From Mangrovibacillus cuniculi (GTDB taxonomy: Bacteria; Bacillota; Bacilli; Bacillales; R1DC41): DNA of 64,000 bases. Made by a program: the position numbers and the translations under genes. The stretch is taken from positions 2,573,001 through 2,637,000 of the forward strand of contig NZ_CP049742.1 in assembly GCF_015482585.1 (NCBI RefSeq), in the 5' to 3' direction. The first letter of the stretch is position 1. Each line of letters begins with the position of its first letter. The notes beneath the pieces are model-generated. The model did not search any database. It was not told the DNA's origin and worked only from the letters and a program-made list of their open reading frames with translations. Shown here piece by piece: positions 56,361-59,421 of this stretch.

Positions 56361-57593
56361 TTAGGCACCAAACTCCGCCTCGCTAGTTCTCTCATCTTGT
56401 TGTTTACCAAAATACTTTCGACCTGTGGGACTCATCACTACTCTGAGCGTTAAAAATCCTAAGAGTAAAAATAAAATACACCCAATAAAATAAACTTCCC
56501 TAATTCCAAACACGGATGCACTCCATCCAATGAGACTAGTGAAAGCAATGACTAATCCCGCTTCCATGAGGCCCAAAATACTAGTAAATCTCCCTAGCAT
56601 TTCTTCTGGTATGTGCTTTTGATAAAACGTATAAAAACCAGTATTGGCGAAAGATAGAGAGAACGTTAAAAAGAAGAATCCGAGTGCGGACATCCAAAAA
56701 TCAACGGAAGTGGCAAAGATCAAATATCCAACTGGTGTCCCAATCCCACCAAAAAGTAATAAAAATCTAATAGAAAATCTGTTGGATAAGGTGGCATTTA
56801 AGAACGATCCAAATGCAATCCCGACTCCCGCCACACTTACTAAGTACCCATACATATCTTCTGTAAGCTTTAACTCTTTGATAGCAAAGGAGGCTTCCAA
56901 TGAATCTAGCGTAGCCATCGCAATCATCATCCAAATAAAAAGTATATATATAATAGAAACAAATTTATTTTGATCCATGAATATCCTTGTAAGCTTCCAA
57001 TCTTGCAGTATGAGTTCTTTTGTTATTTTATCCACCACATCCTTCCCATCTACTGCTGGTAAGAACATTAGAAGCAAAGCTGATACTAGTAGAGCGAAGG
57101 AATTCGCCCAAATGGCAATCTCGACTGATCCAATAAAGATTAATCCTCCTGCAATACTCGGACCGATAATAAATCCGCTAGACTGTATAAAATTGCGTAT
57201 AGCATGAAATCGTTGACGGTTATCCGTTGGTACTAGCTTTACCATATATACTTCAGATGTAGTAGAAAACACGGTTGTGCCGATGTTAATCATAAAGACG
57301 AATACATATAAAGTAGGTAAAGACGAAAGGAATGGTAGGAGTCCTATCAGCACAGCTCTACCAATATCTAATCCTATCATCATATGTTTCTTATTCCACC
57401 GATCGATGAAGCTACCACTCCAAAAGTTTGTACAAAGCATTGCTAGTGGCACCAATAAGTACAGAATGGATACAGCAAATGCAGAACCTGTCTCCTCTAA
57501 CACGTATAAATTAAGGGCGATAAAGTACACCCATCCCCCTATATTAGATACACCTATCCCAATAAAAAGTAACCAAATCTTTCTCCAAAGCAC
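56361..57593 (-). CDS. MFS transporter under T-box control
   Basis: A 410-residue MFS protein of the MefA/EntS-like group: GVSNIGGWVYFIALNLYVLEE at the start, SFIDRWNKKHMMIGLDIGRAV, and a C-terminal half with TFYQKHIPEEMLGRFTSILG. GTG start 8 nt after AGGAGG. A complete T-box leader with its own promoter lies upstream on the same strand, separated by ~195 bp containing stem-loop repeat copy 4. This predicts induction on depletion of one charged tRNA, so the substrate may be an amino acid or a related compound rather than a drug. Confidence 0.87.
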   Translation of the reverse strand: MLWRKIWLLFIGIGVSNIGGWVYFIALNLYVLEETGSAFAVSILYLLVPLAMLCTNFWSGSFIDRWNKKHMMIGLDIGRAVLIGLLPFLSSLPTLYVFVFMINIGTTVFSTTSEVYMVKLVPTDNRQRFHAIRNFIQSSGFIIGPSIAGGLIFIGSVEIAIWANSFALLVSALLLMFLPAVDGKDVVDKITKELILQDWKLTRIFMDQNKFVSIIYILFIWMMIAMATLDSLEASFAIKELKLTEDMYGYLVSVAGVGIAFGSFLNATLSNRFSIRFLLLFGGIGTPVGYLIFATSVDFWMSALGFFFLTFSLSFANTGFYTFYQKHIPEEMLGRFTSILGLMEAGLVIAFTSLIGWSASVFGIREVYFIGCILFLLLGFLTLRVVMSPTGRKYFGKQQDERTSEAEFGA

Positions 57594-57641: not shown

Positions 57642-57730
57642 TATCCTTGAATTTTCCATCGATGAGCAAGTCACATTGACTCTGCTCTGTTCGAGTTTCC
57701 ACTTTAAAAGGTGGTAGACATTCAAGGATA
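57642..57730. repeat. 11-bp inverted repeat around a hairpin-rich segment
   Basis: TATCCTTGAAT (57642-57652) and ATTCAAGGATA (57720-57730) are perfect inverted copies; between them the minus strand can form GAGCA.AGTCA..TGACT.TGCTC. No target-site duplication is visible. Confidence 0.5.
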
Positions 57731-57791
57731 CTCAGTTAAGTTCAAGCCACATCACGTGGCTAACACTAGTTGTTACAGGTCACGTAACAAA
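57727..57791 (+). repeat. Two-stem-loop terminator-associated repeat, copy 4
   Basis: GGATACTCAGT..GCCACATCACGTGGC..ACTAG then TTGTTAC..GTCACGTAACAAAAA. Stem 1 is CTCAGT with ACTAG (one base lost). It abuts the T-box terminator. Confidence 0.8.
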
Positions 57792-58133: not shown

Positions 58134-58235
58134 TCCGTCGTAAAAATATTTATATTGACGATTGGTTCCATTCTGCATATACTTTTCTTATCAGCCGAAT
58201 GAGTTTGGCTGGTGCATTTAAAAAGCAAATTGACT

Positions 58236-58345
58236 CCAAAGGGGAGTAGCTTACAAGTCTGTCGTCATTTCGTGATGGTTTACCATCTCCGGCATACTTG
58301 GCAACATTTCGTTGCTTGCGAGACCTTTGCCTTAACGGTAAAGGA
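58236..58345 (+). promoter_or_regulatory. yybP-ykoY manganese riboswitch
   Basis: AAAGGGGAGTAGC at the 5' side and CATACTTGGC..GCGAGACCTTTGCC at the 3' side are the conserved parts of the Mn2+-sensing motif. CCTTTGCC (58324-58331) pairs with the 5' AAAGG in the aptamer or with GGTAAAGG (58337-58344); GGTAAAGG can instead pair perfectly with CCTTTACC of the terminator (58372-58379). This fits a Mn-on switch. Confidence 0.9.
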
Positions 58346-58367
58346 CCCCCTACGTATATATGTAGAT

Positions 58368-58402
58368 GAGACCTTTACCAATTTGGTAGAGGTCTTTTTG
58401 TT
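58368..58402 (+). terminator. Mn-riboswitch terminator
   Basis: GAGACC..TACC pairs with GGTA..GGTC, then TTTTT. Its 5' arm CCTTTACC is complementary to the antiterminator strand of the riboswitch. Confidence 0.88.
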
Positions 58403-58472
58403 ATATAAAGGAGGAGAATAAGACAATTACTTAATTATTGTACAACTCACATTAAACAATAAGGAGAGGGAA

Positions 58473-58640
58473 TTGTCGTTGGACGTAGATAGGATACAGA
58501 AGTATTTTATCTTCATTGCTTTGTTAGTTGTTTTACAAACATGGATGTGGAATATGGTAACGGGAGAAATAAAGAATCCTCCTCGTTCGCTTAATTTTTA
58601 CTCATCAGCACAAGTCATCGAGCAACAGAATTATAGATAA
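58473..58640 (+). CDS. Small single-pass membrane protein in the Mn-riboswitch unit (55 aa)
   Basis: TTG start six bases after AAGGAG (a second TTG two codons on is possible). The product has one hydrophobic helix (YFIFIALLVVLQTWMWNMVT) and a short polar tail (GEIKNPPRSLNFYSSAQVIE). It lies between the Mn riboswitch terminator and the TerC-type exporter gene, ending 28 bp before it, so it should be made only when Mn is high. I know no family name. A role as a partner or regulator of the exporter is inference from position. Confidence 0.65.
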   Translation: MSLDVDRIQKYFIFIALLVVLQTWMWNMVTGEIKNPPRSLNFYSSAQVIEQQNYR

Positions 58641-58668
58641 ATAATCTAATAGAAAGTGGGTAAATAGC

Positions 58669-59421
58669 ATGGAGTGGTCTATTTTGTTCGAGTACGGTTG
58701 GGTTTTATTAATATTAATTGCTCTAGAAGGTATCTTGGCTGCAGATAATGCTCTTGTAATTGCAACAATGGTAAGACATTTGCCGGAAGAAAAAAGAAAG
58801 AAAGCTCTGTTTTATGGATTAGCTGGAGCATTTGTATTCCGTTTCGGTTCATTATTTTTAATTTCTTACTTAGTAGATATTTGGCAAGTGCAAGCGATTG
58901 GAGCCGTCTATCTATTAGGTATTGCAGGTTACCACTTGCTAAAGAAACATGTGTTAAAGAAACACCTAGAAAAACAGAAAGAAGTTAAAGAAGGTTCTGG
59001 ATTTTGGACAACAGTTATTAAAGTGGAACTTGCAGACATTGCTTTTGCGGTAGATGCAATTTTAGCAGCAGTAGCACTAGCAGTCACGTTACCAGAAACA
59101 AACTTACCAACCATAGGAGGACTAGACGGTGGACACTTCATCGTTATCCTACTTGGAGGGATCATCGGTTTAGTGATCATGCGTTTTGCCGCTTCTGCAT
59201 TTGTAGGGCTTCTAGAGAATCGCCCAGGTTTAGAGTCAGCTGCTTTTGCCATTGTAGGTTGGGTAGGGGTAAAACTTGCTGTATACACGTTAGCGCACCC
59301 TTCACTTGGTTTTATCTCTTATGAATTTGCCAAAGGGCCTGTATGGAAAGGAATCTTCTGGGCGGTTCTAATTTTAATTGGAGTTATCGGTTGGATTAAG
59401 TCTAAACCTAAAACTGTTTAA
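58669..59421 (+). CDS. TerC/YkoY-type manganese exporter (MeeY-like)
   Basis: A 250-residue protein of about seven helices in the TerC family: LEGILAADNALVIATMVRHLP and VELADIAFAVDAILAAVAL carry the paired acidic motifs of the family. In B. subtilis the yybP-ykoY-controlled homologue YkoY (MeeY) supplies or exports Mn to secreted enzymes. Here the same riboswitch precedes it, with a small membrane protein gene between. Weak SD (AAAGTGGG) before the ATG; translation may be coupled to the small gene. Terminator follows. Confidence 0.92.
   Translation: MEWSILFEYGWVLLILIALEGILAADNALVIATMVRHLPEEKRKKALFYGLAGAFVFRFGSLFLISYLVDIWQVQAIGAVYLLGIAGYHLLKKHVLKKHLEKQKEVKEGSGFWTTVIKVELADIAFAVDAILAAVALAVTLPETNLPTIGGLDGGHFIVILLGGIIGLVIMRFAASAFVGLLENRPGLESAAFAIVGWVGVKLAVYTLAHPSLGFISYEFAKGPVWKGIFWAVLILIGVIGWIKSKPKTV

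Follow-up and report, generated by a model that had tools for sequence, protein, structure and literature searches.

The question raised by this locus is why a gene for a very small membrane protein should stand between a manganese riboswitch and the exporter gene that the riboswitch is expected to control. The window, meaning the whole stretch of 64,000 nucleotides of Mangrovibacillus cuniculi DNA that was analyzed, carries on its + strand first a Mn riboswitch, then a small reading frame, and last a YkoY-type terC gene. In Bacillus subtilis, meeY (ykoY) is regulated by a Mn riboswitch (PMC10550928), and the aptamer, the terminator switch, and the downstream YkoY-type TerC of that locus all have counterparts here; the window differs in that a further gene, which encodes a small membrane protein and has a translational leader of its own, lies in between. 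A preliminary description of the locus proposed that the small protein is a Mn-induced partner or modulator of the exporter. No published account of a small protein between a Mn riboswitch and terC was found in the mostly open-access literature that was searched. We think it reasonably probable that Mn2+ induces an operon here, in which the first gene encodes a member of a new family of single-pass NPPR proteins of 45-57 residues and is governed by two RNA layers, one acting on transcription and the other on translation.

The transcriptional layer had been recognized as a yybP-ykoY motif with mutually exclusive pairings fitting a Mn-on switch, and both observations were borne out. The aptamer (58233-58333, + strand) contains the conserved GGGGAGUAGC and GAGACC core and the P1 helix. 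It scores 86.3 bits (E 6e-23) with R1, a covariance model trained on 22 leaders of relatives, the window's genome excluded, though the Rfam Mn-aptamer model RF00080 makes no call in the window at its gathering score and gives the aptamer only 14.6 bits (E 0.24; cut-off 45) in a permissive scan. Both sides have changed in 10 of the 23 pairs of the R1 alignment. R1 finds exactly three matches in the window's genome, the window copy and two others, and one of the latter (locus L055) passes RF00080 itself with 52.2 bits. This third Mn riboswitch of the genome (L055:1411-1519) lies 5′ of a second YkoY-type terC without a small frame. Beyond the window's aptamer, the switching strand GGUAAAGG (58337-58344, + strand) can pair with the aptamer 3′ strand ACCUUUGCC (58323-58331) or, as an antiterminator, with CCUUUACC in the terminator 5′ arm (within 58370-58379), with duplex energies of -10.4 and -9.9 kcal/mol. 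Alternatively, GACCUUUACC (58370-58379) pairs with GGUAGAGGUC (58385-58394), forming an intrinsic terminator that with its U-run occupies 58370-58399 (+ strand; -18.3 kcal/mol). The terminator and antiterminator helices exclude each other, which fits the published Mn-ON mechanism in which a switch helix prevents terminator formation (PMC11087558). The sequence and the known class of the RNA strongly suggest that RNA polymerase would pass the terminator when Mn2+ is high. Two other RNA matches lie nearby in the window: a T-box leader (RF00230; 57819-58089, - strand; 87.3 bits, E 4e-19, just below the gathering score of 93) that lies 5′ of a gene for an MFS transporter (56361-57593, - strand), and a weak Bacillaceae-1 RNA match (57720-57788, + strand; 26.9 bits, below the cut-off of 35).

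The last gene of the unit (58669-59421, + strand) encodes a YkoY/MeeY-type TerC membrane protein, assigned to the YkoY subfamily by its matches to TIGR03716 (289.3 bits; curated cut-off 138.5) and PF03741 (156.8 bits), and it follows the small frame at the distance of 28 nt given in the preliminary description. That description also reported a 55-residue single-helix frame with a Shine-Dalgarno (SD) sequence. The gene, the helix, and the SD stand, but relatives favor a different start. The longest reading (58473-58640) has 55 codons from the first TTG, whereas the start by homology is the second TTG at 58479, giving a protein of 53 residues (58479-58640, + strand) that begins MDVDRIQK and whose start codon lies 12 nt after GGAG. 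The protein has a transmembrane helix with a central polar residue and a GEIKNPPRS motif, and a single-sequence AlphaFold2 model contains a long helix at residues 2-30 and a short, less certain helix at residues 42-53. A Pfam/NCBIfam profile search with the window protein gave no match, and nine family members gave none that was meaningful. Searching with the window frame as a single sequence recovered relatives in other genera (E 4e-6 and 2e-5) and a second copy in the window's own genome (E 9e-8), all of which sit behind Mn riboswitches. Conservation in other Bacilli, on which the earlier proposal had been made to depend, is therefore found, and on comparative grounds the small frame is a real gene and no chance reading frame. 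A further candidate (L001), from a scan of genome contigs with the single protein, was set aside as a chance match seeded by an 8-residue pattern and lacking the helix.

As far as profile comparison can place it, the small frame is part of a family of very small membrane proteins that has not been described before and extends across Bacilli. Profile searches detected members in 55 of 397 genomes of the order at E 0.01 and in about 48 at E below 1e-4, a patchy presence in about 12% of the order's genomes, and a second order contributes members from one genus, g156 (genus labels such as g11, g44, and g156 are those of this analysis). Most members have 45-57 residues, with one hydrophobic helix followed by a T-L-E-x-x-NPPR-like stretch; the family alignment places a polar residue, one of K, E, D, Q, and N, about halfway along the helix, and the C-terminal tail varies in length. 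Changes within genera are mostly synonymous per site, as expected under purifying selection, with pooled pN/pS of 0.16-0.28 in the g11 and g44 groups and 0.40 in g88; genus sampling is uneven, and the within-genus pairs are not independent. The combination of a UUG start, an internal stop in some members, and a length of about 50 codons means that gene callers would tend to miss the family.

The translational layer escaped the preliminary description and is the most distinctive part of the system. Its striking features are seen in relatives, since the window copy has no clear start-stop and no in-frame UGA. When the leaders of relatives are compared side by side, a first SD (SD1) stands at the usual distance from an initiation codon, an immediate stop comes next, and the SD of the small frame (SD2) lies beyond. 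Most genera have such an additional upstream SD with its start-stop mini-ORF, examples being GUG-UAA, AUG-UAA, and AUC-UAA. In shuffle tests that drew on up to four loci per genus, an NUG-stop (AUG, GUG, or UUG followed by UAA, UAG, or UGA) with a strong SD was present in 45% of 28 genera compared with 2.3% in shuffles. Seven further genera have a second class, in which AUC, GUC, or AUU with a strong SD directly precedes UAA, UAG, or UGA; this AUC-stop class sits mostly 5′ of ykoY. No start-stop was seen by eye in riboswitch-terC leaders that have no small frame. We rejected the idea that the start-stop is a vestigial ribosome-binding site because the arrangement is constant while the start and stop codons both vary.

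In the NUG class, the stretch just 3′ of the stop pairs with SD2, usually as AUCGUUUCU with AGAAACGAU and in g118 as CCUCUU with AAGAGG. The stability of this hairpin relative to shuffles has a mean z of -1.8 in 23 NUG-stop leaders and +0.4 in 15 others, and the AUC-stop class has no masking hairpin (mean z +0.4). RNAalifold returned no consensus hairpin for the NUG-stop leaders, in which loop lengths and bulges differ, so the hairpins were judged by single-sequence folds against shuffles and carry no covariation support. The start of the small gene itself is also unusual: 72 of 88 loci use TTG, 10 use GTG, and 5 use ATG, and the spacing from SD to start is 11-14 nt at 82 of the 88. The window retains much of this arrangement. 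SD1 (AAAGGAGGAG, 58407-58416, + strand) occupies the place where relatives have a start-stop mini-ORF next, and a hairpin at 58422-58477 (+ strand; MFE -12.4 kcal/mol, z -2.68, with 1 of 200 shuffles as good) encloses SD2 (AAGGAG, 58461-58466, + strand) and pairs the first UUG, while the UUG start and its 12-nt spacing are as in relatives. The mini-ORF has diverged; a scan of the window found neither an NUG-stop nor an AUC-stop, and AUU-ACU-UAA (58426-58434, + strand), at the position of the relatives' start-stop, can be assigned as its remnant only weakly. Two loci of g156 (L138 and L139) lack the start-stop and the 5′ arm of the hairpin and keep SD2 and the UGA-bearing frame, which makes them natural test cases.

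The architecture resembles translational attenuation of erm and cat genes, where the hairpin masking the next SD is preceded by a leader frame that has an SD of its own, and the position of the ribosome decides the outcome. A leader frame and SD 5′ of an SD-masking hairpin are present in the NUG-stop relatives, and the window has the hairpin with a diverged mini-ORF. The leader frame here differs in being one codon long, so that there is no nascent peptide and no elongation. Start-stop ORFs, in which an initiation codon is directly followed by a stop, have been recorded elsewhere, including an AUG-stop ORF at Arabidopsis NIP5;1, cited in PMC5972666, and sites in E. coli and C. jejuni (PMC11955535). 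In contrast to these, the present ones are conserved in about 20 bacterial genera before a single small-protein family, with start and stop both varying.

A second oddity of translation concerns ten genera that carry an in-frame UGA. Counted from the first Pro of NPPR, it occupies only three codon positions: -28 (g28, g39, g61, g86, and g210, together with locus L154 of g133, which reads UUG-AAU-CAU-UGA and is counted here though the script did not place its UGA), -22 (g156), and -18 (g111, g118, and genome G112 of g44, which has a second stop). The following base is A in g28, g39, g61, g86, g111, g118, g156, and the window's paralogue, C in g210, and U in G112. Could these members be pseudogenes? 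Two stops in L088, a TAG in L027, and the truncated paralogue in the window's genome, which ends in NPP-UGA, are what such a reading would predict, as are the in-frame stops themselves. The UGA is nevertheless kept in 17 of 17 g118 species and in 14 of the 15 g156 species read, the exception being CGA, and frameshifts are absent. Downstream of the UGA, every one of the 14 pairs tested has a synonymous excess (uncorrected p values from 0.04 to 1e-5; the pairs are not independent). Because the position of the UGA and the coding selection beyond it are both conserved, we regard pseudogenes as extremely improbable. With coding selection on both sides of a conserved UGA, and with no usable NUG start with an SD seen by eye 3′ of it in g118 or g156 that would give the whole helix, readthrough would be the route to the full protein in about ten genera. 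Within g156, L144 and L156 have very similar frames with a one-base difference at this codon, CGA in one and UGA in the other. UGA is leaky in B. subtilis, and in-frame stops in prokaryotic genes can be under purifying selection (dN/dS below 1), with most cases judged short-lived (PMC7918605); the difference here is that one UGA position is common to whole genera. Selenocysteine was rejected as a general reading of the codon, since the presence of tRNA-Sec does not follow that of UGA: a tRNA-Sec scores above cut-off in g118, g28, and g86 genomes and in many genomes without the UGA, and not in UGA-carrying g156, g39, g61, and g111 genomes. In all, 20 of the 44 Bacilli genomes examined have a tRNA-Sec above cut-off, more than expected.

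What the small protein does in relation to its neighbors can be approached through the variation in gene order. The preliminary description's view, in which YkoY/TerC has the small protein as its dedicated subunit or modulator and the two are made together under Mn, is favored by a conserved single-helix gene that comes first in a predicted Mn-on unit, by adjacency to terC in the window and YkoY/TerC downstream at 25 of 47 family loci within the fetched stretch, by the shared riboswitch, and by the conserved polar residue (K, E, D, Q) at mid-helix, which could pair with a membrane partner. The specific tie to the exporter is where this view falters. The loci of g44, g118, g88, g68, g61, g56, and g10 have the gene with no TerC in the fetched stretch, and some family loci without TerC still follow a Mn riboswitch. 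Conversely, many riboswitch-terC loci have no small gene; G026, whose TerC is closest to that of the window (89%), has the riboswitch and no recognizable small frame. The riboswitch itself is common but not universal: a same-strand R1 match precedes the small frame at 42 of 47 loci (about half of which trained R1) and at 26 of 27 f47 family loci, with 0 of 15 in g156 and none found in g61 and g56. Other partners in the unit include a Spo0M-like protein (PF07070) and an FbpB-family small protein (PF13040). Because neighbors and riboswitch presence vary in this way, the gene appears, across most of the order, to belong to a group that responds to Mn, and it is not tied to the exporter, and its conserved odd translation (UUG, one-codon upstream ORF, masked SD, and often UGA) implies that it is more than an exporter accessory. 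We consider a dedicated subunit doubtful; partnership with the exporter is possible for the window and does not appear to be a property of the whole family. Several unusual arrangements were also noted. The window's genome has a second Mn riboswitch (L054:1587-1900; C1:2936586-2936900) with a shorter paralogue and a Spo0M-like gene, TerC not being next, and this paralogue has an ATG start and no second SD and ends NPP-UGA-ACG. In two g49 loci (L123 and L084) the small frame runs in frame and without a stop into the Spo0M-like gene, a possible fusion, and that gene nonetheless has its own SD and TTG. A c-di-GMP-I riboswitch (75.8 bits) lies slightly downstream of the small frame at L116:1802-1889.

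The accumulation of slow-translation features (start-stop, UUG, UGA, Pro-Pro) and the frequent position of the frame closely 5′ of terC would suit a cis-acting leader peptide, whose translation rather than its product controls the next gene. This is unlikely, as amino acids are constrained over the whole frame while the tail length varies, the next long gene in g61 is on the opposite strand, and the g44 frame stands alone, some 340-980 nt 5′ of a SulP-type gene. An arrest peptide was likewise not adopted, because the PP motif follows the helix by just a few residues, a distance too short for a sensor with the usual tunnel spacing. In hok/mok-type systems, a small toxic peptide is held near silent by its leader. 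A small single-helix peptide with a masked SD, an upstream mini-ORF, and a weak start recalls that logic, and a membrane-active, type I toxin-like peptide could be near-silenced in such a manner. Mostly single-copy genes, purifying selection, and operon membership would be unusual for such toxins, and tblastn searches of phages and plasmids with two family members as queries gave no match, making a toxin very unlikely in our judgment.

Our preferred reading remains a Mn2+-induced operon with two RNA layers, built on features that the computation establishes, namely the family, its coding selection, the leader architecture, and the conservation of the UGA. From these we infer Mn induction, the opening of the hairpin, readthrough of the UGA, and the function of the protein. 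High Mn2+ would allow transcription past the terminator by way of the yybP-ykoY riboswitch. In the resulting transcript, the leader would restrain translation through the SD2 hairpin (in the window and the NUG-stop relatives), the UUG start, and the long 12-nt spacing. SD1 and the minimal frame would put a ribosome beside or on the 5′ arm of the hairpin, and occupancy of the mini-ORF may open it and free SD2, as the ribosome on the leader frame does in erm/cat attenuation. The genera with an in-frame UGA, about ten in number, would additionally need readthrough to make the full protein. The predicted outcome is a small, tightly limited dose of membrane protein, made chiefly at high Mn. In this last respect the protein would differ from MntS, a small Mn-homeostasis protein of E. 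coli that is made when Mn is low; both are small proteins linked to Mn homeostasis, and no sequence relation between them is known. The neighboring genes for YkoY/TerC, Spo0M-like, and FbpB-like proteins point to a membrane role in Mn stress. The likeliest site of action is the membrane, where the small protein would contribute to that response alongside YkoY/TerC but not exclusively with it; in B. subtilis, YkoY/TerC cooperates with the Sec translocon to metalate exported enzymes (PMC10550928). A bolder and rather improbable extension is that the cassette senses faltering termination. A ribosome lingering on the start-stop would open the hairpin and a slow release factor would allow UGA readthrough, so that the two together might admit the protein only under such circumstances (metal overload, RF2 shortage, or termination inhibitors), and the protein would then act on the membrane or on the secretion/metalation machinery.

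This locus brings a protein family that had been overlooked into bacterial manganese biology. The family may provide a clear-cut bacterial example of conserved start-stop control together with genus-wide conserved UGA readthrough. It also makes testable whether a one-codon reading frame controls the translation of a membrane protein and by which signal it does so.
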